This document shows positions 19,330-58,894 of a stretch of 62,829 bases of DNA, piece by piece. Origin of the DNA: a bacterium (GTDB lineage: Bacteria > Sysuimicrobiota > Sysuimicrobiia > Sysuimicrobiales > Segetimicrobiaceae); assembly GCA_035295165.1 (NCBI GenBank), contig DATGJN010000119.1, positions 1 through 62,829 of the forward strand, in the 5' to 3' direction. Position 1 is the stretch's first letter, and each line of letters opens with the position of its first letter. Both the position numbers and the translations under genes were made by a program. The notes under the pieces are model-generated. The model had not been told where the DNA came from. It searched no databases and saw only the letters and a list, made by a program, of their open reading frames with translations.

Positions 19330-20373
19330 GTGAGTGGTTCGTCGGGGCAGGCCGAAGAGTACCTAAGCGTTGCAGAGCTGGATCGCTTCGCCACATTGAT
19401 GGAGCGCATGGTCCACGCGGACGGCGACAATCCGGAGGCGGTGCTCCTCCGGCTCCTCGATCATTGTATCGTACTGATGGGGGCCGAGGGCGGATCGATC
19501 ATGGTGCTCGCCGAGCCGAAGGTGCTCGCGCTGCGTGTCGCCCGAGGCCGGCTCGACGACGTGAAGTCGCATGCGCCGGTTCCGTTCGGACAGAGTATCG
19601 CGGGGCGCGTGGCGGAAACCGGCGTCGGCATGCTGGTGCAGGATGTGCCCGAGGGGTTGACCGGCTACATCTCCAAGACGCACCCTCCGCGGTCTGCCGT
19701 GTGTGTGCCCATCCGGTGCGAGGACCGAGTCGCCGGGATCCTGAACCTGAACCTGTGGACGGCCGACCGCCGGTTCGGCCCCACCGATCTTCGGATCGCC
19801 CGCCTGCTCGCGATTCAAGTCGCCTGGGTCCTCACGCTGAACCAGCGGCTCGCCGAGATCTGGCGCATCGCCAAGGTGGACGGGCTGACCGGGCTCTCGA
19901 CGCGGTGGCACTTTAGGATGCGGCTGGAAGCCGAGATCGCCCGATCCGCGCGTCAGGATCTGCAGTTTTGCGCGGTCATGACCGATCTGGACGAGTTCAA
20001 GCATCTCAACACCCGGTACGGGCACCTCGCGGCCGACGCCGTGCTGCGAGAGCTCGGTACCGTGATCCAGGCCCACGTGCGGACCATGGATCTCGTGGCC
20101 CGGTTCGGCGGGGACGAGTTCGTCCTGCTCCTGCCGGAGGCGGACATCCGAACGGCACTGCAGATCATCGGGCGTCTGCAGGCCGCCGTGGCCGCGCATC
20201 GGTTTCTGGGGCCTCAGGGAGAGGCGATCGGGCTGTCGCTGTGCGCCGGTATCGCGCAGTATCCGCTCGACGGCAGGGATCCCGATGACCTGCTCGAGGC
20301 AGCCGATCTTGCCTTGATGGACGCGAAGCGCCGGGGCGCCGGCGCCGTGTCGATCGAGGCGCCGATCGGGTAG
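19330..20373 (+). CDS. GAF-GGDEF diguanylate cyclase
   Basis: A 347-residue soluble enzyme that makes c-di-GMP from two GTP. A GAF sensor domain covers about residues 15-170 (GAEGGSIMVL, PFGQSIAGRVAETG, SAVCVPIRCEDRVAGILNL). The GGDEF domain begins at DGLTGLSTRWHF, with Asp220/Asp221 in MTDLDEFKHLN and an intact active loop GGDEF at 260-264. The inhibitory site RTMD (251-254) lies exactly five residues before GGDEF, so product inhibition is expected. It starts with GTG. It follows the HD-GYP gene and probably shares its transcript, a typical opposing pair that sets local c-di-GMP. Its 3' end overlaps the convergent mgsA frame by 160 bp. Confidence 0.93.
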   Translation: MSGSSGQAEEYLSVAELDRFATLMERMVHADGDNPEAVLLRLLDHCIVLMGAEGGSIMVLAEPKVLALRVARGRLDDVKSHAPVPFGQSIAGRVAETGVGMLVQDVPEGLTGYISKTHPPRSAVCVPIRCEDRVAGILNLNLWTADRRFGPTDLRIARLLAIQVAWVLTLNQRLAEIWRIAKVDGLTGLSTRWHFRMRLEAEIARSARQDLQFCAVMTDLDEFKHLNTRYGHLAADAVLRELGTVIQAHVRTMDLVARFGGDEFVLLLPEADIRTALQIIGRLQAAVAAHRFLGPQGEAIGLSLCAGIAQYPLDGRDPDDLLEAADLALMDAKRRGAGAVSIEAPIG

Positions 20374-20924
20374 ACTCCGCTCCGCGTCTGGCGGGTTTCC
20401 TGAATCGCCGTGCCGCCGCGGTTTACGTCCCGCGCGGCGGCCACTGCAACCGGGGCGCTCGGCGCCGTCGGCGGGCGCGTCCTGTCAGCGCCGCAGGGGG
20501 GGACGAGGCGGTCGTACGGCTCCCGCATCAGCGGGGAGGAGACCATGACGTCCGCCGACGCGCGGGTGCACGCGACCGGGACGTTCCAGCCGGCCGCGAC
20601 CCGAAGCAGCGCCCGCACGTCCGGATCGTGCGGCAGCGGTTCGAGCGGATCCCAGAAGACGATCAGAAACTCGATCGCGCCGCGCGCAATCCTCGCGCCG
20701 ATCTCGAGGTCGCCGCCGAGCGGCCCGCTGTGGGACGTGGTGACCGGGAGCCCCCACTCCTCTGCGATGATCCGTCCCGTGGTGCGCGTCGCGTACAGGC
20801 AATGGCGCTCCAGCGACCCACGGTTGAACCGCATCCAATCGACCAGTTCGGCCTTCTTGTTGTCGTGCGCAATGCACGCAATCCGCTTCTCGCGTTCGAT
20901 GCGAATCCGGTGGTACGTCTCCAC
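20214..20924 (-). CDS. mgsA: Methylglyoxal synthase
   Basis: The first 150 of 236 codons are a clear methylglyoxal synthase, which converts dihydroxyacetone phosphate to methylglyoxal and phosphate. Conserved stretches are RIACIAHDNKK, LYATRTTGRIIAEE, TSHSGPLGGDLEIGARIA (catalytic Asp72), FLIVFWDPLEPLPHDPDV and NVPVACTRASADVMVSSP. The enzyme relieves phosphorylated-sugar stress. The start is GTG at 20924. After about residue 145 the frame runs on for 90 low-complexity residues unlike any known member, antisense to the end of the GGDEF gene for 160 bp. The extension may be real or the result of a lost stop codon. Confidence 0.88.
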   Translation of the reverse strand: METYHRIRIEREKRIACIAHDNKKAELVDWMRFNRGSLERHCLYATRTTGRIIAEEWGLPVTTSHSGPLGGDLEIGARIARGAIEFLIVFWDPLEPLPHDPDVRALLRVAAGWNVPVACTRASADVMVSSPLMREPYDRLVPPCGADRTRPPTAPSAPVAVAAARDVNRGGTAIQETRQTRSGVYPIGASIDTAPAPRRFASIKARSAASSRSSGSLPSSGYCAIPAHSDSPIASP

Positions 20925-21036
20925 GCCATCACCTCTCGAACGGGCCCGCGTGCGCCCGCGGGGGGACTGTTTCCTTCGAGAGTAGCGCGGCGGTTCTCTA
21001 GCGAAGGTGAGGAGGCGTTCAAGGCTGTGTGAAGCG

Positions 21037-21978
21037 TCAGTGCTCGTCCAGGCGGTACCCGATGCCCCGGACGGCGACGATGCGAATGCCGCCGGGGGCC
21101 TCGATCTTCTTGCGGAGCCAGGCGATGTGCGTGTCCAACGTTCGCGTGTCGCCGAAGTAGTCTTCACCCCACACGTCCCGCAGGAGCCGCTCCCGGCGCA
21201 CGATCTTGCCTTGATGTCGCAGCAGCAGGTGCAGCAGGCCAAACTCCTTGGCCGAGAGCGGCACCGGCACGCCGCTCGCCGTCACCTCGTGGTGTTCGAC
21301 GTCCATCACAAGGCCGTGGATCGAGAGCTTGCGCTCCACGCCGGCCTGGATGACGAGTGTCTCGAGGACGTTCGCGATGTCTTCACACCGGTCCGTGGCG
21401 TCCTCCAGCATCTCGCAGATGTCTTTCCACTTGAGGATTTCCTTCGCGCTCGCGCGGCTCGCGAACAGCCGCCCGATCGCATCCCGTAGCACGTCGTCGC
21501 CGCGGTTCTCCAGCAGATGCAGGGTCCGGGTGTGCGGGAAGACGTCATGCATGTGAGGGACGCGGCGCACCGCCTCCCGCAGTTCTCGGGCGGACTCCAG
21601 CACAATCTTCCCTAGGTCGAGCGCAGGTGGGAACACCCGCCGGATGCGATGGATCGCCAGGCGCGCCGCGGCGGCCTCGATCCCGTCGAGCACGTCGTCC
21701 AAGTTGCCGGTGAGCGCCTGGACCGCCTCCGACAGCGTCGCATCGCCCCGGCCTGACGCCAAGGTTTCGAAGAGGTCGCGCGCGATCGCGTCGCCTTTGT
21801 GCTCCAGATCGCGGATCGGGGGCCACGCATCGCTAAAGGACGCTTTGCCCTCCAACCCCGTCACCAACGCACGCGCGGCGTTGAGGATCGTTTCCGTCAT
21901 GTCCTGCAGGAGGGCAAACTCCTGCGGGCTTGGGGCGGCCCCCGGCTCAGGCGCGGGACGATCGCGATCGACGTCCAT
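21037..21978 (-). CDS. DUF47/PhoU-like domain fused to PhoB-type winged-helix DNA-binding domain
   Basis: A 313-residue two-domain protein. Residues about 20-212 are a DUF47 (Pit-accessory, PhoU-like) helical domain with its twofold repeated metal-binding acidic helices: DLEHKGDAIARDLFETL, NLDDVLDGIEAAA, LLENRGDDVLRDAIGRLF and WKDICEMLEDATDRCEDIAN. Residues about 215-313 are an OmpR/PhoB winged helix: VPLSAKEFGLLHLLL, KIVRRERLLRDVWG, RTLDTHIAWLRKKIE and VRGIGYRLDEH. There is no receiver domain and no Asp phosphorylation site. DUF47 proteins normally act with Pit-type transporters, and none is in the window. The fusion suggests a one-component regulator whose phosphate- or metal-sensing module drives DNA binding directly. 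It follows the amidohydrolase gene by 41 bp but has its own -10. Confidence 0.88.
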   Translation of the reverse strand: MDVDRDRPAPEPGAAPSPQEFALLQDMTETILNAARALVTGLEGKASFSDAWPPIRDLEHKGDAIARDLFETLASGRGDATLSEAVQALTGNLDDVLDGIEAAAARLAIHRIRRVFPPALDLGKIVLESARELREAVRRVPHMHDVFPHTRTLHLLENRGDDVLRDAIGRLFASRASAKEILKWKDICEMLEDATDRCEDIANVLETLVIQAGVERKLSIHGLVMDVEHHEVTASGVPVPLSAKEFGLLHLLLRHQGKIVRRERLLRDVWGEDYFGDTRTLDTHIAWLRKKIEAPGGIRIVAVRGIGYRLDEH

Positions 21979-21986: not shown

Positions 21987-21992
21987 ATTATA
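21987..21992 (-). promoter_or_regulatory. TATAAT -10 element, nearly leaderless
   Basis: On the minus strand CGCTATAATGCC gives a perfect -10 hexamer eight bases before the ATG of the DUF47-winged-helix gene. The expected transcription start falls within one to three bases of the start codon, so the mRNA would be leaderless or nearly so. The -35 region is poor. Confidence 0.5.
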
Positions 21993-26097: not shown

Positions 26098-26778
26098 ATG
26101 CGAACGATTCTCGTCGTTGACGATGAGCCCAAGATCGTGCAGGTGGCCCGGGACTACCTGGCGCGGGCCGGGTTCCGCGTGCTGACCGCGGGTGACGGCA
26201 ATGCCGTGCTGACGATGGTGCGGACGGCGCGGCCCGACCTCCTTGTGTTGGACCTGGCCCTGCCCGGGATGGACGGACTCGACATCACCAGGGCGCTGCG
26301 CAGAGAGTCGCAGGTTCCCGTGATCATGCTGACGGCCCGTGCGGACGAATCGGACCGATTGATCGGATTGGAGCTGGGGGCGGACGACTACATCGTCAAG
26401 CCGTTCAGCCCGAAGGAACTGGTGGCCCGTGTCCGAGCCGTCCTGAGGCGGTGGGACGCGGCGCGCGCGGGGACGGATCTCGTCCGCGCCGGCGATCTCG
26501 CGCTCGACGTGCCCCGGATGCGGGCGCGCCTCGGCGACCGCGCGCTTGCGCTCACGCCCACGGAGTTTCAGCTCCTCGCCGTAATCGCCCGCGAGCCGGG
26601 GCGCATCTTCACGCGCGGTCAGCTCCTCGAGGCGGTGCACGGCATTGCCGTAGAGTCCTACGAGCGCGCGATCGACTCGCACATCAAGAACATCCGGCGC
26701 AAGGTCGAGCCGGATCCGCACCACCCGCGGTACGTGCTGTCCGTTCACGGCATCGGCTACAAGTTCGCGGACGAATGA
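26098..26778 (+). CDS. OmpR/PhoB-family response regulator
   Basis: A 226-residue regulator. The receiver domain has the acidic pair in ILVVDDEPK, phospho-acceptor Asp52 in LLVLDLALPGMDG, the switch Thr in VIMLTAR and Lys100 in YIVKPFSP. The winged-helix effector domain reads LTPTEFQLLAVIA, RIFTRGQLLEAVHG, ESYERAIDSHIKNIRRKVE and RYVLSVHGIGYKF. Its ATG lies 150 bp after the membrane-protein gene, and its stop overlaps the kinase start (ATGA). It is the natural candidate to bind the 11-bp direct repeats at 25491 and 27941, since winged-helix regulators of this family bind head-to-tail repeats with that period. Confidence 0.95.
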   Translation: MRTILVVDDEPKIVQVARDYLARAGFRVLTAGDGNAVLTMVRTARPDLLVLDLALPGMDGLDITRALRRESQVPVIMLTARADESDRLIGLELGADDYIVKPFSPKELVARVRAVLRRWDAARAGTDLVRAGDLALDVPRMRARLGDRALALTPTEFQLLAVIAREPGRIFTRGQLLEAVHGIAVESYERAIDSHIKNIRRKVEPDPHHPRYVLSVHGIGYKFADE

Positions 26779-27914
26779 CGCGGGCCCGGTGCGCGTCGCC
26801 GCGCTGGGGCCCCCGCCGCGGGCGTCCGCCGTGGTGGCCCGACGACGAAGCGTGGCCGCCCGCCGGCCGGGGCGAGGTGTGGCGGCACGTCAAGCGACGG
26901 TTTCTGCTCCGCGTGCTCGCGCGTGTGTCGGCGGTGGTCGTCGCGGTGGCAGCTCTGTCGGTCCTCCTCCACTGGGCCGTCATGCACGTGTTCGGGATCA
27001 TGGCGCCCGCGGGGAGGACGGGCGTCGGTGCGGCGACCGTCGCCCTGGCGGCGGTGCTGTGTGGGATGGTTCTTGCCGGCGTCACGGTCCGCGTGATGGT
27101 GAGACGGGTGGGCGATCTCATCGTGGCCCTCGGCAGGATCGCCGACGGTGACTTTGGAACGCGCGTCCGCGAAGCGGGCCCGCCCGAGGCGCGGATCCTC
27201 GGCCGCGCGTTCAATAGAATGGCGGAGCGGTTGGAACGTCAGGACGCGAAGCGCCGCGGGCTGCTGACGGACATTTCCCACGAACTTCGAACGCCGTTGA
27301 CTGTCCTGCAGGGGAATCTGGAGGGGATGCTCGACGGCGTGTACCCCCGCGATGCGGAGCACCTGTCGCTGGTGCTCGAGGAGACGCAGGTGCTCGCTCG
27401 CTTGATCGAGGATCTGCGGACCCTCACGTTGAGCGAGAGCCTCGAACTGGCGCTGGCTCGGGCGCCGACGGATCTCGCCGCGGTGGCCCGCGACGCGGTC
27501 GCCTCGTTCGAAACCCAGGCGGCGGAGGCCGGGGTCTCCTTGCGATTGGACGCCACGCCGGACCTGCCGCTGGCCGAGGTGGACCCGGAGCGCATTCGCC
27601 AAGTGATCAACAATCTGCTGTCCAACGCGCTGCGATATACAGCTGCGGGCGGGACCGTGTTCATGCGTTGTGCGGCGGGTTCCCCGGGGCAGCTCGTCGT
27701 GACCGTCGAGGACACTGGCGCCGGGATCCCGGCGGAGGACCTGGCCCACATCTTCGAACGCTTCTACAAATCGCCCGATTCGCGCGGTACGGGTCTGGGC
27801 CTCGCCATCGCAAAGAGCCTGGTCGAGGCCCACGGCGGCGGGATCATCGCCGAGAGCGTTGTCGGGAAGGGGACGACGATGCGCGTGACGCTGCCCGTCC
27901 AGCCGCCGTCCTAG
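26775..27914 (+). CDS. Sensor histidine kinase
   Basis: A 379-residue membrane kinase partnered with the preceding regulator. Two membrane helices (LARVSAVVVAVAALSVLLHW and VALAAVLCGMVLAGVTV) enclose only a short external loop of about 20 residues. A HAMP segment follows (LGRIADGDFGTRV), then the phospho-acceptor His169 in DISHELRTPL. The ATPase has N box VINNLLSNALRY, G1 DTGAGIP, F box FERFYK and G2 GTGLGLAI. The small external loop suggests sensing within the membrane or via a partner, possibly the small membrane protein encoded upstream. The ATG overlaps the regulator's TGA. The N-terminal 40 residues are Arg/Trp/Pro-rich and cytoplasmic. Confidence 0.93.
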   Translation: MTRARCASPRWGPRRGRPPWWPDDEAWPPAGRGEVWRHVKRRFLLRVLARVSAVVVAVAALSVLLHWAVMHVFGIMAPAGRTGVGAATVALAAVLCGMVLAGVTVRVMVRRVGDLIVALGRIADGDFGTRVREAGPPEARILGRAFNRMAERLERQDAKRRGLLTDISHELRTPLTVLQGNLEGMLDGVYPRDAEHLSLVLEETQVLARLIEDLRTLTLSESLELALARAPTDLAAVARDAVASFETQAAEAGVSLRLDATPDLPLAEVDPERIRQVINNLLSNALRYTAAGGTVFMRCAAGSPGQLVVTVEDTGAGIPAEDLAHIFERFYKSPDSRGTGLGLAIAKSLVEAHGGGIIAESVVGKGTTMRVTLPVQPPS

Positions 27915-43881: not shown

Positions 43882-44304
43882 ATGCTCAGGGGCGAGGCGC
43901 AGTATGCGCTCGACGACAAGGGGCGGGTGGTGATTCCTCCCAAGTTCCGGGCGGAGATGGGGGATCGCATCACCGTGACCCGCTGGATCGAGCCGTGCCT
44001 TGCGGCGTTCTCCCCCCTCGAGTGGCACTCCCTCGAAGAGAAGCTCCGCATGCTGCCGCTCGGCAACGCCGACTTCGTGCGTCTCTTGCTCTCGGCGGCC
44101 GAGGACTGCGATCTGGACCGGCAGGGGCGGATCACGCTCCCGCCGCACCTGCGGGAGCACGCGGCCATCACCCGAGGCGTGACGATCATCGGCGTGGGGT
44201 CCCGTCTCGAGGTCTGGAGCACGCCGAATTGGCGGCGGAAGCTCCAGTCCGTTCGGAAGCGGCAAGACGAGTTGGTGGGACAACTCCAGGCGCTGATCCT
44301 GTAG
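43882..44304 (+). CDS. mraZ: Transcriptional regulator MraZ
   Basis: A 140-residue protein that binds the repeats just upstream and represses or tunes the dcw cluster. Two AbrB/SpoVT-like swapped-hairpin domains are seen, each with the DxxGR motif: DDKGRVVIPPKFR (11-23) and DRQGRITLPPHLR (79-91). It is the standard first gene of the cluster, 25 bp ahead of rsmH. ATG 43882 gives the universal MLRGEAQYALDDKGR start. Length is normal. The long purine-rich leader between terminator and gene carries the operator. Confidence 0.96.
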   Translation: MLRGEAQYALDDKGRVVIPPKFRAEMGDRITVTRWIEPCLAAFSPLEWHSLEEKLRMLPLGNADFVRLLLSAAEDCDLDRQGRITLPPHLREHAAITRGVTIIGVGSRLEVWSTPNWRRKLQSVRKRQDELVGQLQALIL

Positions 44305-44328
44305 TGATGATCGAGAGGCGAGGCGCGG

Positions 44329-45348
44329 GTGGCGTTTGGACGAACCAGCGGCGGGTCGACGTCTCCTCAGCAACCGGTGCATGTTCCGGTTTTGGTGGAT
44401 GAGGTGTTGACATATCTGGCACCCCGCGCCGGGGCCTTGATCGTGGACGCCACCATCGGCGATGGGGGACACGCCGAAGCCGTGCTCCGCCGCATTGCGC
44501 CGGCGGGCCGGTTGATCGGGCTCGACCGGGACGGCGACGCGATCGCCCAGGCGGAAGAGCGGTTGCGCCCGTTCGGGCGCAACGTGATGCTGCGACAGGC
44601 GAGTTTCGGCGAACTCGACGAGGCGCTCGACGCGCTGGGGGTCGGAGTGGTCGACGGCGTGCTCTTCGACATCGGGGTCTCGACCCGGCAGTTGCTCGAG
44701 CCGGGCCGGGGCTTCAGCTTCGACCGCGCCGGGCCGCTGGACATGCGCATGGACCGGACGCAGGAGCTGACCGCGGCGCAGATCGTCAACACCTTTCCCG
44801 AGCGCGCGCTCGCCGACCTGATCTACCGCTACGGCGAGGAGCGTGCCTCGCGCAAGATCGCGAAGCAGATCGTCGCTCGGCGTCCGCTCAAGACTACGCG
44901 CGACTTGGCCCAGGCGGTCGAAGCCGCGATCGGCGGCGCCCGGGGGCGGCTGCATCCGGCGACGCGGACGTTTCAAGCGATCCGCATCGTCACGAACGGC
45001 GAACTGGACGCGCTTGAGCGCGGGCTGCCGCAGGCGGTCCGCCGCCTGCGTCCCGGCGGGCGACTGTGCGTGATCGCGTTCCATTCGCTTGAGGATCGGA
45101 TCGTGAAGCAAGTGCTGACACGCTTGTCGCGCGGGTGCACGTGTCCACCAGACCTGCCCGTCTGTCGATGCGAGGGCGAACGGTTGCTGCGCGTGCTCAC
45201 CAAGAAGCCGGTGACGGCGTCGCCGGCCGAGGTCCGGAGCAATCCGCGGGCGCGCAGCGCACGGTTGCGCGCGGCGGAGCGGCTCGGCGAGACCGCGGCG
45301 CGCGATGCACGCGGCACCCGGCAGGGCAGCGGAAGCGGGGTCCACTGA
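44329..45348 (+). CDS. rsmH: 16S rRNA (cytosine(1402)-N(4))-methyltransferase
   Basis: A 339-residue SAM-dependent methyltransferase (formerly MraW) that modifies C1402 in the 16S decoding centre. HVPVLVDEVLTYL and VDATIGDGGHAEAVL form the SAM site, VDGVLFDIGVST the DxxxS motif, and FHSLEDRIVK and the late TKKPVTAS are conserved. A four-Cys knuckle (CTCPPDLPVCRC) is present. The start is GTG; ATG is absent nearby. It follows mraZ by 24 bp and precedes ftsL by two bases. The C-terminal 30 residues are basic, low-complexity and probably bind rRNA. Confidence 0.96.
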   Translation: MAFGRTSGGSTSPQQPVHVPVLVDEVLTYLAPRAGALIVDATIGDGGHAEAVLRRIAPAGRLIGLDRDGDAIAQAEERLRPFGRNVMLRQASFGELDEALDALGVGVVDGVLFDIGVSTRQLLEPGRGFSFDRAGPLDMRMDRTQELTAAQIVNTFPERALADLIYRYGEERASRKIAKQIVARRPLKTTRDLAQAVEAAIGGARGRLHPATRTFQAIRIVTNGELDALERGLPQAVRRLRPGGRLCVIAFHSLEDRIVKQVLTRLSRGCTCPPDLPVCRCEGERLLRVLTKKPVTASPAEVRSNPRARSARLRAAERLGETAARDARGTRQGSGSGVH

Positions 45349-45350
45349 CG

Positions 45351-45815
45351 ATGGCGCTTCGACAGGCACAGATGGCAGCTCCCGTGCTGATTCCCGAGCA
45401 TTGGGGCCTGAGGGGGAGGGAGGCGACCCGGCGTCGGCGGAGACGGTATCCCATGATCGTGACACTCACACTGGCAGCACTTGCGGTAGTGCCATTCGTC
45501 GCACACGTCGCAGCTGTATCAAACGCAGCACACATCGGCTACCACATACTCCAGGACACCCAGGAAATTGCCGCCCTCGAGACCGAGCACGAACGTCTCC
45601 AAGCCATCGCTTCCTCCCTCAGGGCCCCAGAACGGATCGAACACCTTGCCGTGACTCGCCTCGGGCTGCAGGCTCCAGGCGCCGGTCAGATCGCGTCCTT
45701 GTCGCTGCCAGCGCCCGACTCGCGCGAAGAAGCCCGAGGCGGACCGGGGTTCTGGCAGCGGTTCGGCGCATACTTCCACCGAAATGAGGCGGTAGCGGCA
45801 CCGCTCTCCCGATGA
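45351..45815 (+). CDS. ftsL: FtsL-like cell division protein
   Basis: A 154-residue bitopic protein. A basic cytoplasmic start (ATRRRRRRYP) precedes one helix (IVTLTLAALAVVPFVAHVAAV), followed by a coiled-coil periplasmic part (LQDTQEIAALETEHERLQAI) and then RIEHLAVTRLGLQAP, the usual FtsL ending. FtsL has little sequence conservation, so the call rests on position between rsmH and ftsI and on topology. It binds FtsQ and FtsB-type proteins at the divisome and activates FtsWI. The C-terminal tail after residue 110 is longer than usual. Its stop overlaps the ftsI start (ATGA). Confidence 0.85.
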   Translation: MALRQAQMAAPVLIPEHWGLRGREATRRRRRRYPMIVTLTLAALAVVPFVAHVAAVSNAAHIGYHILQDTQEIAALETEHERLQAIASSLRAPERIEHLAVTRLGLQAPGAGQIASLSLPAPDSREEARGGPGFWQRFGAYFHRNEAVAAPLSR

Positions 45816-47629
45816 CGCCCCGGAGCGGCCGGCCACGGCCGGCCGCCCGCGACGGCGTGAGTGCCTGGCGCGTGACGGCCGTGTTCGTGGTCTGGGCGTT
45901 CGCGTGCCTCTGCCTGCTCGGTCGCATGGTTGATGTTCAGGTCATCCGCGGCGGCGCGCTCCAGCGCCTGGCGCTTCGTCAGCAGCTGGAGTCGGTGCAG
46001 ATCCCGGGCCGCCGGGGCCTCATCGTCGACCGCGTGGGACGCCCCCTGGCCATGAACGTCGAGGTCGACTCCGTGTACGCGGTGCCGCGCGCGATCGACG
46101 ACCCGGAGGCGTTTGCGGCGCGGGTGGCGCCGGTGCTCGGCCTGCCCCCGACGGCGGTGGTCCGCCGCCTCAAGAGCGGCGGCCCGTTCTTCGCGTGGCT
46201 CGCGCGGCGTCGGCCGATGGCGGTGGCGCACGCGCTGACCGCGCTCGGCCTCGGCCGCGCCGTCGGCATCGTGCCGGAGGCTCGGCGCGACTACCCCAAC
46301 GGGCCGCTCGCCGGCAGCGTGATCGGCTTCACCGGCACGGACGACGCCGGGCTTGCCGGACTTGAGCTCGCGGACGACCGATTCCTTCGTGGGGCCAGCG
46401 GACTCGGCACGGCGGATCGCGACGCGATCGGCCGGGAGCTCGTCCAAACGCTGCGGATCGTGACGCCGCCGCGCGACGGGGCCACGGTGGTGCTCACGCT
46501 CGACGAGGTGATCCAGCACATCGCCGAACGCGAGCTGCAGCAAGCGATCGACCAGACCACTGCCGACGGCGGCGTGGCGATCGTGATGAATCCCCAGACG
46601 GGAGCGATCCTGGCGCTCGCGGCGTTGCCGTCGTTTGATCCGGGTCAGTACCAGAAGGCGCCTGCGGCCTTGTGGAAGAACCGCGCGGTGGCCGATCTGT
46701 ACGAGCCCGGGTCCACGTTCAAACTGATCCTCGCCGCCGCCGCCATTGCGAGCCACACGATCACGCCGGACGACCGGTTTCGGGATCCGGGGCAGATTCG
46801 CATCAACGGCGCCACGATCCACGACGCGGAGAAATCGGAGCACTTCGACGCGCTCAGCCTGACCGACATCATCAAGTACTCAAGCAACGTCGGCGCGGCG
46901 CAGGTCGCGACGCGGCTCGGCAAATCGACGTACGACGCCTACATCCGTCGGTTCGGATTCGGGTCCCCCACCGGGATCGATCTGCCCGGCGAGGCCTCGG
47001 GCATTATCCGCCCGATCAGGCAGTGGCTTGGGCCGACCCTCCAGAACATCGCGTTTGGCCAGGGAATCTCGGTCACCCCGATCCAGCTCCTGGTGGCGGC
47101 GTCTTCGCTGGCGACGGACGGGATGGAAGTGCGCCCGCATCTCGTCGCCGTCGTCCGCGACGCCACGGGCCACGTCGTCGCCACCCCGGACGATGTGGCG
47201 CCCCACCGCGTGATCTCCGCCGGAGTGGCCGGCCAGGTGCTGGCGATGATGCGGCAGGTGGTGGCGGGCGGGACGGGCGTCAAGGCGCAGATTCCCGGAT
47301 ACAGCGTGGCCGGGAAGACGGGCACCGCGCAGAAGCCCAGCCCGACCGGCGGCTACGAGTCGGGCGGATACGTGGCGTCGTTTGTCGGCGTCGTCCCCGC
47401 GAGCAACCCGGTCCTCGCGATCCTCGTGGTGGTGGATCGTCCGCACGGCGTCTACTACGGCGGCGACGTGGCGGCGCCGGTGTTCCGGGAGATTGCGCGC
47501 CAGGCGCTGTGGTACATGCGGGTGCCGCCGACGGCGCCGATCGCCGTGTCGGAAACCGCGCAGGCGCCCGCTGCGGGCGGGCAGGTCGCCGGGAGCGCCG
47601 CCGGCGCCGGGCCAGCGCGCGCGCACTGA
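45812..47629 (+). CDS. ftsI: Peptidoglycan D,D-transpeptidase FtsI (PBP3-like)
   Basis: A 605-residue class-B penicillin-binding protein that cross-links septal peptidoglycan. One membrane anchor lies at VTAVFVVWAFACLCLLGRM (21-39). The dimerisation domain follows, beginning with RGLIVDRVGRPLA. The transpeptidase has Ser301 in EPGSTFKL (SxxK), SSN at 357-359 and KTGT at 502-505. No PASTA repeats follow, unlike Firmicutes SpoVD; the tail is Ala/Gly-rich. It overlaps ftsL by four bases. A 104-bp gap with its own promoter separates it from murE. Confidence 0.95.
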   Translation: MTPRSGRPRPAARDGVSAWRVTAVFVVWAFACLCLLGRMVDVQVIRGGALQRLALRQQLESVQIPGRRGLIVDRVGRPLAMNVEVDSVYAVPRAIDDPEAFAARVAPVLGLPPTAVVRRLKSGGPFFAWLARRRPMAVAHALTALGLGRAVGIVPEARRDYPNGPLAGSVIGFTGTDDAGLAGLELADDRFLRGASGLGTADRDAIGRELVQTLRIVTPPRDGATVVLTLDEVIQHIAERELQQAIDQTTADGGVAIVMNPQTGAILALAALPSFDPGQYQKAPAALWKNRAVADLYEPGSTFKLILAAAAIASHTITPDDRFRDPGQIRINGATIHDAEKSEHFDALSLTDIIKYSSNVGAAQVATRLGKSTYDAYIRRFGFGSPTGIDLPGEASGIIRPIRQWLGPTLQNIAFGQGISVTPIQLLVAASSLATDGMEVRPHLVAVVRDATGHVVATPDDVAPHRVISAGVAGQVLAMMRQVVAGGTGVKAQIPGYSVAGKTGTAQKPSPTGGYESGGYVASFVGVVPASNPVLAILVVVDRPHGVYYGGDVAAPVFREIARQALWYMRVPPTAPIAVSETAQAPAAGGQVAGSAAGAGPARAH

Positions 47630-47664
47630 TCACCGGCGCGCGCCTATCGGCGGGCGCGCGATCT

Positions 47665-47673
47665 TGCTATAGT
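47665..47673 (+). promoter_or_regulatory. Extended -10 promoter before murE, TGCTATAGT
   Basis: TGC plus TATAGT (47668-47673) makes a good extended -10 about 60 bp ahead of murE, in the only sizeable gap of the mur region. It should give an internal transcript for murE onward. It lacks a clear -35. Confidence 0.6.
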
Positions 47674-47733
47674 GGAACTCGGGCAGCCGGAGCCGGGACA
47701 TGCCGGACCGGCCCCGGGCTCGGAGGAGCGAGG

Positions 47734-49230
47734 ATGCGGTTAGCAAACCTCCTGGCGGCGCTCCCGGTGTCGCCTCCGGGAGACGGCCCGGTGGTGCTCG
47801 GGTCCCGGGACCGTGAGGTCACGGGATTGGCCTATCACTCGGCGCACGTGCGGGCCGGCGACCTCTTCGCCGCGATCCGCGGGCTCTCCCAGGACGGGCA
47901 CCGGTACGCCCAGGACGCGGCCCGGCGCGGCGCGGTCGCGGTGCTCGTCGACCACGCGGTGCCGGACGTCGGGGCGACTCAGGTGGTCGTTCCCGACACG
48001 CGGCAGGCTTTGGCGTTTGTCGCCGCAGCCTTCCATGGGACGCCGTCGGAGCACCTGTGGGTGTGCGGCGTGACGGGAACCAACGGCAAGACCACGACCA
48101 CGTACCTGCTGGAGGCGATCCTCGCGCGGGCCGGCCGTCGCGTCGGGCTCGTCGGCACGCTTGGCGCGCGGCTGGGCGGGGCACCCGTGGAATTCCACGC
48201 CACGACGCCCACGACCCCGGAAGCACCGGACGTCCAACGCCTGCTCGCGGAGATGCGGGCCGCGGGCGCCGGCGACGTGATCATGGAGGTGACCTCCCAT
48301 GCGCTGGCGCTCCATCGCGTCGACGCGTGTCGTTTCGGCGCGGCCGTGTTCACCAACCTTACGCAGGACCATCTGGACTTCCACGGGGACCTCGCGGGCT
48401 ATCGGGACGCCAAGGCGCGGCTGTTCGAGATGGTCGCACCTGACGGGCTCAGCGTGGTGAACGCCGACGACGAGGCCAGCGCCGCGATGGCCTCGCGCAG
48501 CCGGGCCCGCGTCTGGACCTACGGGATCGAGCAGCGCGCGGATGTGTGCGCGGAGCGGCTCACGCTCGGCCCGCGGGGAACGCGCGGTTCCGTCGTGTGG
48601 CCGGGCGGACGCATGCCACTGGTGTTGCCGCTTCCGGGCCGGTTCAACGTCGCCAACGCGCTCGCGGCGGCGGCGGTGGCGCTCGCGCGCGGGATCCCGC
48701 CGGAGGTTGTGAGCGGCGCGCTCGAGACCGTGCCCGGCGTGCCCGGCCGTTGCGAGCTCGTGAACGAGGGGCAGCCGTTTACGGTCATCGTGGACTACGC
48801 GCACACGCCGGACGGACTCGAGAAGGTGTTGCGCCTCGCCCGCGAGGTCGCAACGGGCCGCTGCGTGACGGTGTTCGGCTGCGGCGGCGACCGCGACCGG
48901 ACGAAGCGGCCGATCATGGGACGCATCGGGACGGCGCTTGCCGACTACGCCGTGTTCACCTCCGACAATCCGCGCAGCGAGGACCCGGGGGCGATCATCC
49001 GCGAGATCGAGGCCGGTGCCGCGGGGCGGAACTTTGAGAGCGAGCCGGACCGGCGTCTCGCGATTGGGCGCGCGCTGGCGCTGGCCCGGGCGGGCGACGT
49101 CGTGGTGATCGCCGGCAAGGGCCACGAGCCGTACCAGATTCTTCGGGACCGCACGATTGCGTTCGATGACCGCGAGGTCGCGCGGGACCTGCTCCGCGCC
49201 GGCCGCACGGAACTCGGAGCGCACCCGTGA
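47734..49230 (+). CDS. murE: UDP-MurNAc-L-Ala-D-Glu--meso-DAP ligase
   Basis: A 498-residue ATP-dependent ligase adding the third residue of the stem peptide. The ATP site is GTNGKTTTTYLL (115-126). EVTSHALALHR and FTNLTQDHLDFHG are the Mur-ligase centre, VDYAHTPDGLEK holds the catalytic His, and the specificity motif DNPR is at 411-414 (TSDNPRSEDP), which selects meso-diaminopimelate over lysine. VIAGKGHEPYQ lies near the end. ATG 47734 follows GGAGGAGCGAGG. It has its own promoter. The next gene, murF, starts 85 bp later. Confidence 0.96.
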   Translation: MRLANLLAALPVSPPGDGPVVLGSRDREVTGLAYHSAHVRAGDLFAAIRGLSQDGHRYAQDAARRGAVAVLVDHAVPDVGATQVVVPDTRQALAFVAAAFHGTPSEHLWVCGVTGTNGKTTTTYLLEAILARAGRRVGLVGTLGARLGGAPVEFHATTPTTPEAPDVQRLLAEMRAAGAGDVIMEVTSHALALHRVDACRFGAAVFTNLTQDHLDFHGDLAGYRDAKARLFEMVAPDGLSVVNADDEASAAMASRSRARVWTYGIEQRADVCAERLTLGPRGTRGSVVWPGGRMPLVLPLPGRFNVANALAAAAVALARGIPPEVVSGALETVPGVPGRCELVNEGQPFTVIVDYAHTPDGLEKVLRLAREVATGRCVTVFGCGGDRDRTKRPIMGRIGTALADYAVFTSDNPRSEDPGAIIREIEAGAAGRNFESEPDRRLAIGRALALARAGDVVVIAGKGHEPYQILRDRTIAFDDREVARDLLRAGRTELGAHP

Positions 49231-49315
49231 GATCCGTGAGACAGCCGATCCGGAGCCCAGGCGCATACGCGTCGTCGCAGCGGAGTTGCGCGGTGGGCCG
49301 AGGTCTCGCGTGACG

Positions 49316-50764
49316 ATGGCGAACGGGCGGGAGCATCCTGCGTCGCCTCCGTCCGAGATGGCCGTTCGAGAGCTCGCCGCTGTCTGCGGCGGCGTCGTCG
49401 TGCGGGGCGATCCGGCGGCGTCCGTCCGCGGCGTGACCGTCGATAGCCGCGCCGTTTCGCCGGGCATGGTGTTCGTGGCGCTGCGGGGCGAACGGACCGA
49501 CGGGCATCGGTTCGCGGCCGAGGCGTGCCGTCGGGGCGCCGCGGCGGTGCTGGGGACGCTGGATGTGCCGGACGTGCCGCCGGAGGTCGCGATGATCGTT
49601 GTCCCGGACACGCTGCACGCGTTGCACGTGCTCGCGCGGAACGTCCGGGACCGCCAGGCGCTGCGGGTGATCGGCATCACCGGGAGCGTCGGGAAGACCT
49701 CGACCAAAGAGCTGACCGCGGCGGTGACCGGCCGAATGTTCCGCACCGTCCGGTCACCGCGCAACTGGAACACCGAGATCGGGATCCCGCTCGTCCTCGC
49801 GAATGTTCCGAGCGACGCGGAGATCGCGGTGGTCGAGCTGGCGATGCGGGGGCCGGGGCAGATTCGCGAGCTCGTGGCGGTGTCGCGCCCCGAGATCGGC
49901 GTCGTCACGAACGTGGGGGAGTCCCACTTGGATTTCTTCGACGGCCGTGAGGCCCTCGCCGCGGAGAAGACGGCCCTCGTCGAAGGGCTGCCGGCGGATG
50001 GGGTCGCGATTCTGAACGCCGAGGATGCGCTGGTGCTGGCGATGCGCCGGCGGACGCCGGCGCGAGTTGTGACGTTTGGGCTGCGCGCGGGCGACGTCAC
50101 CGCAAGTGCGATCCGCATGCTGCCGGGCGAGGGGAGCGCGTTTCGCCTCCACACGCCCGCGGGCGATAGCGAGGTCCTGCTCCACCTGCCCGGCCGCCAT
50201 GCGGTCCTGAACGCGCTTGCGGCCGCGGCGGCCGGGGGGGCGCTCGGCGTGCCGGTGGAGGAGATCGCGTTGGGACTCGGAGGGGCGTCGATGCTGCCGA
50301 TGCGGCTGGCCGTGCGCCGGGTCGGCGAGGTTACCCTCATCGACGACACCTACAACAGCAGCCCCCAGTCGATCGAAGCCGCGCTGGATGTCGTCGACGA
50401 GCTGCCCGGCGCACCAAGGATCGCCGTGCTCGGCGACATGCGAGAGCTCGGGGCGGCGTCGGACGACGCGCACCGCCGTGTCGGGCGGCTCGTCGCGGGC
50501 AGACGGTTCGACCTCGTGATCGCGTTCGGCCCGCTCGCCGCTGAGCTCGCCGGGTCGGCCATCGACGCGGGCGGCGCCCGGGTGACCCATACGCTGGACC
50601 CGGCCGAGGTGCTGCGAGTGCTCCGGCGCGAACTGCGACCCGGCGCGGTGGTGTTGATCAAGGGTTCGCGGGCGCTGGAGATGGAACGGATCGTGGCGGC
50701 CCTCGAGGGCGGGACCGGCGTCGGCGATGCGGCCCCACGCGGGCGGGGGCTCGCGTGGGCGTGA
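49316..50764 (+). CDS. murF: UDP-MurNAc-tripeptide--D-Ala-D-Ala ligase
   Basis: A 482-residue ligase that completes the UDP-MurNAc-pentapeptide. The N-terminal domain shows VTVDSRAVSPGMVFVAL, the ATP site GITGSVGKTSTKEL, then NWNTEIGIPLVLAN (substrate loop), ELAMRGPGQIRELV and the C-terminal LIDDTYNSSPQSIEAALD and VLGDMRELG. All are hallmark MurF segments. ATG 49316 is preferred; GTG two codons upstream is possible, and further upstream codons are not natural. The end overlaps mraY by ten bases. Confidence 0.95.
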   Translation: MANGREHPASPPSEMAVRELAAVCGGVVVRGDPAASVRGVTVDSRAVSPGMVFVALRGERTDGHRFAAEACRRGAAAVLGTLDVPDVPPEVAMIVVPDTLHALHVLARNVRDRQALRVIGITGSVGKTSTKELTAAVTGRMFRTVRSPRNWNTEIGIPLVLANVPSDAEIAVVELAMRGPGQIRELVAVSRPEIGVVTNVGESHLDFFDGREALAAEKTALVEGLPADGVAILNAEDALVLAMRRRTPARVVTFGLRAGDVTASAIRMLPGEGSAFRLHTPAGDSEVLLHLPGRHAVLNALAAAAAGGALGVPVEEIALGLGGASMLPMRLAVRRVGEVTLIDDTYNSSPQSIEAALDVVDELPGAPRIAVLGDMRELGAASDDAHRRVGRLVAGRRFDLVIAFGPLAAELAGSAIDAGGARVTHTLDPAEVLRVLRRELRPGAVVLIKGSRALEMERIVAALEGGTGVGDAAPRGRGLAWA

Positions 50765-51729
50765 CCCCGGCCCTCTCGGCGTGGGGGCTCGCGGTCGCGC
50801 TGACCCTCGCCGCGGGCGCCCCGGTCGTGACGTGGCTCCGGCGGACCGGCGTGGTGCAGATTGTGCGCGACGACGCGCCCCGTCGTCACGCGGACAAGGC
50901 CGGGACCCCGACGATGGGGGGCGTGCTGATTATTGGAGCGGGGCTCGTCGCGGCGCTGGTCGTCGCGGCCGCTGCCGGCCGGATCTCGCGCGACCTCGCC
51001 GTCGGACTCGTCGTGATCGCGATCTTCGCCGCGGTCGGCGGGGTGGACGATGCACTGGGAATCGCACGGGGGCGGAACCTCGGGCTGCGTGCGCGGGACA
51101 AACTGGCGCTGCAGATCCCCGTCGCCCTGCTGGTCGGCCTGTACGTGGCGCGGACGCCCCGCCTGGGCAGCGCCGTGGCGCTGCCCGGCACGCCGTGGCA
51201 TCCGGACCTGGGCTGGGTGTATCCGTTGTTGTGCGTGCTGCTGGTGGTGGGGATGGCGAACGCGGTGAACCTGACGGACGGTCTCGACGGCCTGGCGGCC
51301 GGCAGTGTCGCAATCGCGGCGGCGGCGCTCGTGGTGCTGATCGGCCGCGCCGGCGCCGCCCCGGTGGCCGTGATCGCGGCGGCCGTCGCCGGCGCGGCGC
51401 TCGGTTTTCTGTGGTTCAACGCCCACCCCGCGCGCGTGTTCATGGGTGACGTGGGCTCGCAGGGACTCGGGGCGGCGCTCGCCGTCACCGGGGTGCTGGC
51501 CAAGTTGGAGGTCGCGATGTTGATCATCGGCGGCGTGTTCGTCGTCGAGGCGCTGTCCGTGGTCCTCCAGGTCGCGTACTTCCGGTTCACCGGAGGGCGG
51601 CGATTGTTCCGGATGAGCCCGTTGCACCACCACTGCGAGTTGAGCGGGTGGACGGAGACCCAGACCGTCGTCCGGTTCTGGGTGTGCGGCGCCCTCTTGG
51701 CGGCGCTCGGGATGGCGCTCGTATCGTGA
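50755..51729 (+). CDS. mraY: Phospho-N-acetylmuramoyl-pentapeptide transferase
   Basis: A 324-residue polytopic enzyme that transfers phospho-MurNAc-pentapeptide to undecaprenyl phosphate to make lipid I. It shows KAGTPTMGGVLII, the Mg-binding DD in VGGVDDALGIA, NAVNLTDGLDGLAAGS, FNAHPARVFMGDVGSQGLG and the HHH signature in MSPLHHHCELSGW. About ten helices. The start is GTG at 50755 or 50761, overlapping murF. The stop overlaps the murD start (GTGA). Confidence 0.96.
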   Translation: MGVTPALSAWGLAVALTLAAGAPVVTWLRRTGVVQIVRDDAPRRHADKAGTPTMGGVLIIGAGLVAALVVAAAAGRISRDLAVGLVVIAIFAAVGGVDDALGIARGRNLGLRARDKLALQIPVALLVGLYVARTPRLGSAVALPGTPWHPDLGWVYPLLCVLLVVGMANAVNLTDGLDGLAAGSVAIAAAALVVLIGRAGAAPVAVIAAAVAGAALGFLWFNAHPARVFMGDVGSQGLGAALAVTGVLAKLEVAMLIIGGVFVVEALSVVLQVAYFRFTGGRRLFRMSPLHHHCELSGWTETQTVVRFWVCGALLAALGMALVS

Positions 51730-53249
51730 TCGCCGACGTGCTGCGCCGGTTGCGGGGCCAATCGATCCACGTCGTGGGCCTGTCCGGCACCGAGGGGTCC
51801 ACGGTCGTGGAGTTTCTGTTGCGCCACGGGCTCACCGGCATCACGGCGCACGACCTGCAGACCCCGGAGACGTTCGCGGACGCGTTCCGCCGGGCGCACG
51901 CGTGGCTGGAACCGGCCGAGCAGGAGGCGGCGGTCGCGCGCCTCCTGGCCGCGCCGATCACCGTCAGGTTTCGCGACCGGTACCTGGAAGGGATCGCGGA
52001 CGCGGGCATCATCTACACGACGCAGGCGTGGTTCCGGTACCCGGAGAACGCGCCGGTCCGGCGGGCCCGGGATGCGGGCGTGCCGCTCAGCAGCATGACC
52101 GCGCTGTTTTTCGAGACCGTGCCGTGCCCGATCCTCGGCGTGACCGGGACGAACGGGAAGTTCACGGTCGCGCACCTCGCGGCGATGATGCTCGAGGAGA
52201 GCGGATCCCGGGTGTTTTCGAGCGGCAACGATCGGACGCACGTGCCGATCCTGTATCGGCTGGACGAGGTGACGCCCGACGCGGTCCTCGTGCTGGAGAT
52301 CAGCAACCGCCAGCTCGTGGGGTTGCCGTACAGCCCGCACATCGCGGTGATCACGAACTTGGCCAGGCACCACCTGGACGACCACGGGTCCTTCGAGGCG
52401 TACGTGGAGACAAAGCGGGGGATTCTGGCGCACCAGGGCGCGGGCGACCGCGCCGTCCTCAACGGCGATGATCCGACGACGCGGGCGCTCGCGGCGGGCG
52501 CGCCGGCCCCAACGCTGCTGTGGAGCCAGTACCGGACGCTCGACGAGGGCGCCTGCGTCGTGGACGGGCAGATCGTGCTCCGGCTCGACGGCCGCGAGGA
52601 GCGGGTCGGCCCGGCGGCGCTTCCGGTGCCCGGCGCGCACGCGCTCGAGAACGCGCTGGCGGCGGCGCTGGCGGCGCGCGTCGCGGGCGCTGCTCCCGGG
52701 GCGATCGAGGCCGTGCTGCGGCGGTTCCGGGGCCTTCCGTACCGGTTGCGCTTTGTCGCGGAGATCGCGGGGGTGCGCTACTACGAAGACTCCCTCGCCA
52801 CGAACCCGGCCGCGACCGTCGCGGCCGTGCTCGCGCTCGATCGGCCGCTCGTGCTCCTCGCGGGCGGACAGCGGCCGGGCGCCACCGCGGGTGATTTCCG
52901 GCCGGTCGCTGAGGCCCTGCGGACCCGCCCGCCGCGCGCCGTGGTGGTGTTCGGCGCGATGGCGTCTCGGATCGCAGACGCGATCGGCGAGGCTGGCGGG
53001 GGCGTCCGCGTCGTGCGATGCGAGACCCTGGACGAGGCGGTGGCGGCCGCACGCGCGCTCGCGCGGCCCGGGGACGCCGTCAGCCTGTCGCCGGCGTGTG
53101 AAAGCTTCGACCAGTTTCGCGACTACCGCCACCGTGCCGAGCGTTTCTGCGAGTTGGTCGCAGGGCTCGGGCGGGACGCGGCGGTCGAGGAGTCGGAGCC
53201 CACAGACGCGCTGCCGCGGGGAGCGAGGAGCGTAGACCCGTGGAACTGA
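51726..53249 (+). CDS. murD: MurD-type Mur ligase with divergent active-site motifs
   Basis: A 507-residue Mur ligase in the murD position, expected to add D-Glu to UDP-MurNAc-L-Ala. The P-loop reads GVTGTNGKFTVAH (141-147), with Phe where Ser/Thr normally binds Mg. The next motifs are EISNRQLVGL (normally ExSSFQL) and NLARHHLDDHGSFEAYVETK (normally N-DHxDRH), while the later YYEDSLATNPAATVAAVLAL and SLSPACESFDQFRDYRHR fit MurD well. The N-terminal domain (VVGLSGTEGSTVVEFLLRHG) replaces the usual GxGxSG strand-loop and is followed by an insert. The start is GTG. It overlaps both mraY and ftsW. Identity as MurD rests on position and C-terminal motifs. Confidence 0.88.
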   Translation: MIADVLRRLRGQSIHVVGLSGTEGSTVVEFLLRHGLTGITAHDLQTPETFADAFRRAHAWLEPAEQEAAVARLLAAPITVRFRDRYLEGIADAGIIYTTQAWFRYPENAPVRRARDAGVPLSSMTALFFETVPCPILGVTGTNGKFTVAHLAAMMLEESGSRVFSSGNDRTHVPILYRLDEVTPDAVLVLEISNRQLVGLPYSPHIAVITNLARHHLDDHGSFEAYVETKRGILAHQGAGDRAVLNGDDPTTRALAAGAPAPTLLWSQYRTLDEGACVVDGQIVLRLDGREERVGPAALPVPGAHALENALAAALAARVAGAAPGAIEAVLRRFRGLPYRLRFVAEIAGVRYYEDSLATNPAATVAAVLALDRPLVLLAGGQRPGATAGDFRPVAEALRTRPPRAVVVFGAMASRIADAIGEAGGGVRVVRCETLDEAVAAARALARPGDAVSLSPACESFDQFRDYRHRAERFCELVAGLGRDAAVEESEPTDALPRGARSVDPWN

Positions 53250-54418
53250 TCCACAAGCGCGGGGCGGCGTGGGGGCTGTTCTTGACCGTGCTGGCGCTCA
53301 GCATGATCGGCGTCGTCATGGTGTACAGCGCGAGCGCGGTCGTGGCGCAGGCACAGTACCACGACAGCGCATGGTTTCTCAAGCGCCAACTCCTGTACAC
53401 GGTGATCGGGCTCATCGGCATGTCGGTCGCGTGGCGGCTGCACTACGCGAGGCTCCGGCAGATCACCCTGCCGCTGTTGGCGATCACGTTCGTGTCGCTC
53501 CTGCTGGTGCTCATGCCGCACATCGGCCGCGAGGCGGGCGGTGCGCGCCGATGGCTGACATTCGGCGGACCGCTCAACTTCCAACCGGCCGAGCTCGCCA
53601 AGCTGGCGATCATCCTGTACCTTGCCAACTTCCTCGCCAACCGCGGGGAACGCGCGCGGGAGTTCGGCGCGGGCATGATCCCGCCCGTGATCGTGTTGCT
53701 GGCGCTCGCCCTGCCGATCGTGAAGCAGCCCGATCTGGGCTCCGCGCTGATCGTGGCGCTCATCGCGTTCGTGCTGTTGTTCGTCGGTGGCGCCCGCCTC
53801 GACCATCTCACCCTGGTTGCGGGCGCGGCGGTGGCCGCGGTGCTGGCCGCGATCCTGCGGGGCGGGTACCGGACCCACCGGCTGTTCGCGTTCCTCGACC
53901 CGTGGAAGGACCCGCGGGGAACCGGGTTTCACATCATCCAGTCGCTCCTCGCCCTCGGGTCGGGAGGCGTGGTCGGCCTAGGCTTGGGGCACAGCCGGCA
54001 GAAATTCTTCTACCTACCGGAACGCCACACCGATTTCATCTTCTCGATCATCGGCGAGGAGCTCGGCCTGATCGGGACCGCCGCGGTGATCATCCTGTTC
54101 CTGTGCCTCGCGGTGTGGGGCTACCGGATCGCGTCGCGCGCCCCCGACCGGTACGGGGCGTTGCTGACGTCGGGGCTGACGACCATGATCGTGGGGCAGG
54201 CGGTCCTGAACATCGGCGTCGTCTCGGGATCGCTGCCGATCACGGGCGTGCCGCTGCCGTTCATCAGCTTCGGCGGATCGTCGCTGGTGCTGAGCTACAT
54301 CGCGATCGGCATCCTGTTGAACGTCTCCCAGTACGCGCACGAGGAAGAGCCGGTCGTGGCCCGCCGCCCGGCGCGGCCGGCGCATGCCCGGCGCCGGTCG
54401 GCGTGGGCCCGCGGATGA
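53240..54418 (+). CDS. ftsW: Peptidoglycan glycosyltransferase FtsW
   Basis: A 392-residue SEDS-family protein with about ten helices. It polymerises septal glycan strands from lipid II together with FtsI. Conserved parts are MVYSASAVVAQ, ARRWLTFGGPLNFQPAELAKLA, VKQPDLGSALIV, LPERHTDFIFSIIGEELGLIG and PLPFISFGGSSLV. GTG at 53240 overlaps murD by ten bases. The last 40 residues are a basic cytoplasmic tail (RRPARPAHARRRSAW). The stop overlaps the murG start (ATGA). Confidence 0.95.
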   Translation: MELIHKRGAAWGLFLTVLALSMIGVVMVYSASAVVAQAQYHDSAWFLKRQLLYTVIGLIGMSVAWRLHYARLRQITLPLLAITFVSLLLVLMPHIGREAGGARRWLTFGGPLNFQPAELAKLAIILYLANFLANRGERAREFGAGMIPPVIVLLALALPIVKQPDLGSALIVALIAFVLLFVGGARLDHLTLVAGAAVAAVLAAILRGGYRTHRLFAFLDPWKDPRGTGFHIIQSLLALGSGGVVGLGLGHSRQKFFYLPERHTDFIFSIIGEELGLIGTAAVIILFLCLAVWGYRIASRAPDRYGALLTSGLTTMIVGQAVLNIGVVSGSLPITGVPLPFISFGGSSLVLSYIAIGILLNVSQYAHEEEPVVARRPARPAHARRRSAWARG

Positions 54419-56945: not shown

Positions 56946-57858
56946 CCCGGAGACCCTCGCCGCAGCGCTGGAGCGTCTGTGTCCCGGCGCGATCCGCCGG
57001 GAGGAGCCGCTGTCCCGCCACGTCTCGTTTCGCATCGGCGGGCCTGCGGATGTGCTGGCGCTGCCGGGCACGCTCGACGAACTCGCCCGGGTCGTCGCGT
57101 GGCTCTACCAGGAGCGCGAGCCGTTCGTGGTGCTCGGCCGCGGCAGCAACGTGCTCATCGCCGACCGCGGCGTCCGTGGGGTGGTCGTCAAGACCGGCCG
57201 CGGTCAGGAGGGCCTTCGCTTCGACGGAACCCGGGTCGACGCCGAGTGCGGCGTGAGCGTCCCGTACCTCGCCCGCCAGGCGTCGCTGCGCGGCCTCTCA
57301 GGCCTGGAGTTCGCCGGGGGCGTGCCCGGCTCGGTCGGCGGCGCCCTGGCGATGAACGCCGGGGCGCACGGGCACTGCATGGCCGAGGTCGTGACGCGCG
57401 TCCGGGTCGTGACGCCCGATGGCGAACGGACGTGGCGCGCGGACGAGTTGGCCTATGCGTACCGTGAGAGTCGTCTGCAGCATGAGCCCGCGGTCGTGCT
57501 CGACGCGACGCTGGAACTCGCGCAGGAGAGCCCGGAGGTGACGACGGCCCGACTCGACGAGTGGCTGCGGCACCGCAGCGACACGCAGCCGCTCGGCCCG
57601 CCGAGCTCCGGGTGCATCTTCCGGAATCCTGCCGGGGATCACGCGGGGCGGCTGATCGACACCGCCGGGGGCAAGGGGCTTCGGGTCGGGGGGGCGGTCG
57701 TGAGCGACCGCCACGCCAACTACATCCTCAACACGGAACACGCGACCGCGGCGGACGTACTCGGCCTGATCGCCCTCGTGCACCGGCGCGTACGCGAGCG
57801 GTTCGGCGTCGAGCTCGAGACCGAGGTCAAGCTGCTTGGGGAGTTCGACGCACGATGA
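56938..57858 (+). CDS. murB: UDP-N-acetylenolpyruvoylglucosamine reductase
   Basis: A 306-residue FAD enzyme that reduces UDP-GlcNAc-enolpyruvate to UDP-MurNAc. It shows HVSFRIGGPADVLALP, VLGRGSNVLIAD, FAGGVPGSVGGALAMNAGAHG (FAD pyrophosphate and catalytic Arg region), YRESRLQ and PPSSGCIFRNPAGDHAGRLID. The proton donor that is Ser in E. coli is Cys226 here, as in some type-II enzymes. The C-terminal NTEHATAADVLGLIALVHRRV is typical of type II. GTG start, overlapping murC. ftsQ follows directly (ATGA); ddl, often found here, is absent. Confidence 0.94.
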   Translation: MGSPETLAAALERLCPGAIRREEPLSRHVSFRIGGPADVLALPGTLDELARVVAWLYQEREPFVVLGRGSNVLIADRGVRGVVVKTGRGQEGLRFDGTRVDAECGVSVPYLARQASLRGLSGLEFAGGVPGSVGGALAMNAGAHGHCMAEVVTRVRVVTPDGERTWRADELAYAYRESRLQHEPAVVLDATLELAQESPEVTTARLDEWLRHRSDTQPLGPPSSGCIFRNPAGDHAGRLIDTAGGKGLRVGGAVVSDRHANYILNTEHATAADVLGLIALVHRRVRERFGVELETEVKLLGEFDAR

Positions 57859-58871: not shown

Positions 58872-58894
58872 CGAGCGGCCGGAGGAGGGATCAC

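Follow-up and report, generated by a model that had tools for sequence, protein, structure and literature searches.

Joined domains in a single open reading frame may point either to a new protein architecture or to an annotation accident. This question is raised by a gene in a bacterium of the Candidatus Sysuimicrobiota (GenBank assembly GCA_035295165.1, contig DATGJN010000119.1, 62,829 nt, hereafter the window), whose product combines a DUF47 (PhoU-like) domain with a PhoB-type DNA-binding domain. If the fusion is genuine, which promoters would it serve, and would it do so without the sensor kinase that usually accompanies PhoB? We addressed these points by domain and fold comparison, a survey of relatives and analysis of the adjoining promoters; the features located in the window are collected in Table 1.

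Table 1. Features of the fusion locus in the window, with the evidence for each.
Feature	Position	Strand	Evidence and remarks
mgsA, methylglyoxal synthase	20214..20924	-	TIGR00160, 149.1 bits (cut-off 146.9); PF02142; GTG start at 20924
Probable -10 of the mgsA promoter, TACTCT	20979..20984	-	16 nt past a unit position
Pho-box-like array, three 11-bp units: GCTTCACACAG CCTTGAACGCC TCCTCACCTTC	21003..21035	-	Matrix hit 24.6; shares its register with the -10; fusion-pst loci carry homologous arrays
DUF47-winged-helix fusion gene	21037..21978	-	Single ORF, 313 aa; Pfam domains; 19 intact orthologues; AlphaFold pLDDT 85.9
OmpR/PhoB-type winged-helix DNA-binding domain (Trans_reg_C)	21049..21267	-	PF00486, 91 bits; PhoB TIGR02154 over residues 213-311
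DUF47/PhoU_div half	21349..21918	-	PF01865 match; residue comparison; 3l39 fold match
-10-like TATAAT	21987..21992	-	8 nt before the ATG of the fusion; the start may be leaderless

A DUF47 domain and a PhoB-type winged helix on one chain

Profile search detected both domains that the original prediction had read from the letters: PF01865 (DUF47/PhoU_div) matches residues 21-210 at 43.8 bits (curated cut-off 24.4) and PF00486 matches the winged helix, residues 238-310, at 91 bits (curated cut-off 26.2). No receiver domain was found in the Pfam search of the 313-aa protein, and the PhoB model TIGR02154 matches over the DNA-binding part only (profile positions 127-226, 74 bits against a cut-off of 296). 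By sequence, the closest PDB entries are 3l39 (PhoU-like) for the N-terminal half, residues 17-211, and the effector domains of RegX3, WalR and PhoB for the C-terminal half. The AlphaFold model, computed with 12 homologues (mean pLDDT 85.9, pTM 0.76), has six helices at residues 18-211 followed by a winged helix at residues 217-312, and Foldseek matched the former to 3l39 (TM 0.86 on target) and the latter to PhoP/PhoB DNA-binding domains. With both Pfam matches above cut-off and the fold matches in agreement, the predicted order, DUF47 and then an OmpR/PhoB winged helix without a receiver, holds, as do the coordinates 21037-21978, to which we add the strand (minus) that the prediction had not given. 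The layout is that of a one-component system, with a putative input domain and a DNA-binding domain on one chain.

Residue comparison shows that the acidic, ExxxD-type pairs E59/D63, D94/D98, E157/D161 and E192/D196 are invariant in all 19 intact fusions, and stand-alone DUF47 proteins share these motifs. The TPxDREDI loop, conserved in Pit-linked stand-alone DUF47 proteins, is lost in the fusions. Upstream of the gene, several fusion orthologues have a TAnnnT 8-11 nt before the start; along with the TATAAT 8 nt before the ATG in the window, this suggests a leaderless fusion transcript.

Distribution and origin of the fusion

Intact copies, 60-80% identical, are found in 19 of 43 Candidatus Sysuimicrobiota genomes (mostly metagenome assemblies, with genes in relatives called by a script trained on these same loci) and span four of the seven families. 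Two additional copies are incomplete, one interrupted by a contig end (G017) and the other masked by N (G018). Another genome, G007, harbors a broken fusion remnant adjoining phoU (locus L044, around 1036-1251) and returned no PstB hit over cut-off.

Nineteen intact single-frame copies in separate, independent assemblies, each half of which falls into one clade, leave hardly any room for the explanation that a frame error or a chance join of two genes near residue 213 produced the window's protein, and we set it aside as exceedingly improbable; the true fusion that had been predicted is borne out. In the trees all winged-helix halves form one clade (SH-aLRT 99) and so do all DUF47 halves (SH-aLRT 100), hence a single fusion event, early in the phylum, is the most likely origin. 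The fusion winged helix forms its own clade, about equally distant from the pst-linked PhoB (44%) and from the phylum-wide paralogue (43%). Outside the phylum, no fusion was found at E <= 1e-40 in a sample of about 343 genomes, and in a pattern-based contig scan of limited sensitivity all full-length matches were assigned to phylum genomes.

The fusion and PhoB-PhoR alternate at pst

The fusion lies at pst or phoU in 16 of the 19 genomes with an intact copy. It is upstream of pst and on the same strand in 13, following the order fusion-(mgsA)-pstS-pstC-pstA-pstB-phoU, which contig ends truncate in some cases. In G014 pst is found about 2.3 kb downstream of the fusion on the same strand, in G001 it comes immediately after pstB of pstSCAB (the genome has no PhoU hit) and in G002 it is followed by phoU. 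PhoU, PstB, PstA, PstC, PstS and methylglyoxal synthase of the G032 operon all pass NCBIfam equivalog cut-offs. None of the 19 loci has a histidine kinase gene adjacent to the fusion. Most fusion genomes also retain phoU, so inputs other than the DUF47 half may exist.

The exceptions belong to the window's own genus, g1, where pst is on another contig and the fusion stands apart. There, PhoB-PhoR is directly upstream of pst in two loci (L099 and L100), and a third (L101) shows PhoB fragments and no called kinase. PhoB-PhoR also precedes pst in genera g2 and g3, which have no fusion and in which a stand-alone DUF47 gene lies nearby in the G023, G024 and G028 loci. Family f5, in which no DUF47 match was found, possesses a PhoB-PhoR pair of its own, which adjoins pst in G035 and G036 and is located elsewhere in others. 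The orthologue of the pst-linked PhoR (601-976 bits) was found in genera g1-g3 only, being absent from fusion genomes outside g1; these keep only a PhoR paralogue (about 230-305 bits) that is phylum-wide and also occurs in PhoB-PhoR genomes; in most loci read, its neighbor is a branched-chain-type ABC transporter. Gene orders across genera and families therefore show that, in the loci seen, pst has one companion or the other, fusion or PhoB-PhoR, and not the two together, and that a pst operon headed by PhoB-PhoR occurs only in genomes that lack the fusion or have it at another site.

The neighborhood anticipated for the fusion was thus found in part: linkage to pst and the boxes described below are present, and linkage to Pit, expected of a DUF47 protein, is not. 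In many of these genomes it is the stand-alone DUF47 genes that are paired with Pit, and a search of the window's genome for PF01384 (Pit) gave no match.

This linkage to pst and not to pit allows one to consider a tethered regulator, in which the DUF47 half docks on Pst (PstB), PhoU or another protein during phosphate flow and is freed to reach DNA when transport stalls, with no phosphate or metal signal involved. PhoU has been reported to contact PstB and PhoR (PMC4913102), and loss of the TPxDREDI loop would fit a change of partner. The ExxxD-type acidic motifs, however, are fully retained, which suggests that a metal site still matters, and the fusion of the window's genome has lost its place next to pst. 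For the input step we consider tethering a strong rival, a credible explanation if not the one to bet on.

Elsewhere in the window, a two-component pair at 26098-27914 (+), about 4 kb from the fusion and present in G027 too, was considered as PhoB-PhoR and rejected: its best matches are BaeS (kinase) and BaeR (regulator), with 46%/39% identity to the pst-linked pair. On sequence alone, the frames at 43882-60136 (+) resemble the mraZ-to-mur/fts genes of a cell-wall/division cluster.

Pho-box-like repeats and promoter geometry

The 110 bases past the fusion stop in 13 loci are self-similar at lag 11 (z = 9.6) and lag 22 (z = 7.6), with z of 1.6 or less at the other lags from 6 to 21. Between the fusion and pstS are tandem 11-bp units carrying TTCAC or TTGAC. 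A weight-matrix scan of all fetched loci returned its best hits before pstS, mgsA and phoU, and before the fusion itself in G033, G003 and G001, a ranking that is partly circular as the matrix was trained on pst-locus arrays. The lag test is independent of the matrix, and the search for a -10 takes only anchor positions from it. In that search TAnnnT, which plays no part in the matrix, starts 15 or 16 bases past a unit position, and so in one or the other of two neighboring phases of the 11-bp register, in 26 cases out of 30 (main phase alone, P = 1.8e-14).

PhoB-activated promoters have their box array at -35, in fixed register with the -10. The distance and fixed register of the -10 elements seen here put the array at the -35 position, the geometry of a Pho-box activator. 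Boxes that adjoin a -10 might also bring to mind a repressor that blocks the pst and mgsA promoters at ample phosphate and leaves DNA when phosphate is scarce, as a ligand-released repressor would be the simplest kind of kinase-free regulator. We regard repression as unlikely: in nearly all promoters studied the array is at -35 in fixed register with the -10, a PhoB-type activated layout, and those PhoB-headed loci of the same phylum that yielded a -10 (in g1, in G025 and at one f5 locus) have the same spacing as the fusion loci.

The letters of the boxes tend to follow the regulator. Units at the PhoB-PhoR loci of g1 to g3 are mostly TTAAC or TTAAT, against TTCAC or TTGAC at most fusion loci; this appears to be a tendency and not a rule, as the pstS promoter of genus g4 contains units of both the TTAAC and the TTCAC kind. 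Tandem sites of 11 bp are common to the OmpR family, and the boxes could thus serve some other regulator, for example the PhoB/PhoR-like pair of nearly all genomes, with the fusion as an auxiliary factor only. Such a pair is indeed present in most fusion genomes, and 11-bp repeats of the TTCAC type are found close to unrelated two-component operons as well. Yet the pair adjoins the branched-chain-type ABC transporter and not pst, it is shared with PhoB-PhoR genomes, and the change of letters between PhoB-headed pst and most fusion loci indicates that box letters tend to vary with the regulator at hand. A foreign owner of the boxes is thus quite improbable in our judgment. The preferred reading, in which the fusion itself would act on the boxes as an activator, is the one we retain.

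A wider search for TTSAC triples gave 94 hits in total against 8 in a reversed control. We discounted the extra triples as evidence, several of them preceding unrelated two-component genes. Exact or near TTCAC triples with 11-bp spacing at L137, L147, L148, L156 and L159 precede genes for small exported proteins and for two-component systems that have no relation to pst, and are probably sites of another OmpR-family regulator. In G041 (L162, 1501-2935) a box lies 77 nt before a solute-binding protein gene resembling the glycerol-phosphate UgpB; only the general solute-binding family was matched and the gene was dropped as a regulon member.

Methylglyoxal synthase as a neighbor

In the window, with no pst nearby, the box array precedes mgsA. 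Fusion and mgsA are neighbors in four genomes from two genera (G000, G031, G032 and G033, the last with a 91-aa frame called between the two), although mgsA is present in only 10 of the 43 phylum genomes. The enzyme, methylglyoxal synthase, frees phosphate from dihydroxyacetone phosphate, and phosphate inhibits it. Methylglyoxal production has been described as important during phosphate limitation (PMC11850910). We take the position of mgsA next to the fusion as an independent pointer to phosphate. G026 and G027 have no box after the fusion; together with a PhoB-PhoR-pst operon located elsewhere, this indicates that the role of the fusion in g1 may be reduced, and in the window's lineage it may now govern mgsA alone.

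Homology of the window's MgsA is confined to 20496-20891, leaving a C-terminal tail of about 95 aa without homology. The gene lacks its usual stop, and the extension overlaps the 3′ end of a GGDEF gene on the opposite strand; stop loss or a frame slip is possible.

Proposed function and relation to known systems

Taken as a whole, these observations make it likely that the fusion is a soluble, kinase-independent, one-component activator of a Pho regulon, controlled by its DUF47 half. The domains, their conservation, the gene order, the boxes in register with a -10 and the exchange with PhoB-PhoR at pst are observed; DNA binding, activation as the direction of its effect, the signal and independence from a kinase are what we infer for it. 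The PhoB-type winged helix would bind the tandem 11-bp TTCAC/TTGAC boxes that stand in for the -35 element and would activate pstSCAB-phoU and mgsA as well as, in some species, the gene of the fusion itself. The DUF47 half would provide the input in place of a receiver domain and the PhoR kinase: with ample phosphate it would stop the protein from binding DNA or lock it in an unproductive dimer, either via its acidic metal sites or via contact with Pst or PhoU, and with scarce phosphate this hold would be released. As to the input itself, contact with Pst, PhoU or another partner and binding of a ligand (metal or phosphate) are equally plausible. In the window's lineage, pst is under a PhoB-PhoR pair, and the boxed mgsA promoter persists next to the fusion. 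The suggestion that the protein is a one-component counterpart of the PhoU-PhoR-PhoB circuit gains support from the survey, given the pst or phoU location in 16 of 19 genomes and the Pho-box-like repeats at pst promoters.

Like the response regulators PhoB, PhoP and PnpR, the fusion has a winged helix, pst as its predicted target and 11-bp direct-repeat boxes that stand in for the -35 at a fixed distance from the -10. Unlike them, it has no receiver and so no phosphorylatable aspartate, DUF47 being there instead, and no adjacent kinase gene. DUF47 proteins have been named PitR and tied to Pit in an analysis of single-domain members only (PMC13170248). With PitR/DUF47 (PhoU_div) the fusion shares the six-helix PhoU-like fold, ExxxD-type motifs and 3l39 as closest solved structure, but it differs in being linked to Pst and not Pit, in carrying a DNA-binding domain and in having lost the TPxDREDI loop. 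PhoU proper (TIGR02135) resembles it in its related fold and pst-operon setting; the fusion, however, belongs to family PF01865 and not PF01895, and PhoU lacks a DNA-binding domain, its described route of action being via PhoR and PstB.

An AbrB-PhoU fusion may also exist. Archaeal PhoU-family proteins are listed among DNA-binding transcription factors as a PhoU-like class (PMC6316755), tying a PhoU-like domain to transcription as in the fusion, although those proteins are archaeal. By this analogy, the general idea of a PhoU-type domain in a DNA-binding regulator seems not wholly without precedent, and our searches of the open-access literature found no described DUF47/PhoU-winged-helix regulator.

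It has long been asked how PhoU-type proteins pass on the status of phosphate uptake to transcription, a hard question, as PhoU, Pst, PhoR and PhoB need to be studied jointly in the membrane. Our comparison of loci leads us to favor, with some reserve, a kinase-free Pho circuit in the Sysuimicrobiota, in which the fusion would replace PhoR-PhoB at pst and a PhoU-type protein would itself signal to DNA, box geometry being common to both and letters differing (TTAAC for PhoB-PhoR, TTCAC/TTGAC for the fusion). If true, one soluble chain with predicted operators would make the signal, be it phosphate, metal or Pst contact, directly readable as DNA binding, and relatives within the phylum would offer a natural case of a one-component regulator and a two-component system in the same place. 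The genomes of this uncultured phylum thus suggest, by inference, that a textbook circuit of two proteins may here be condensed into one.
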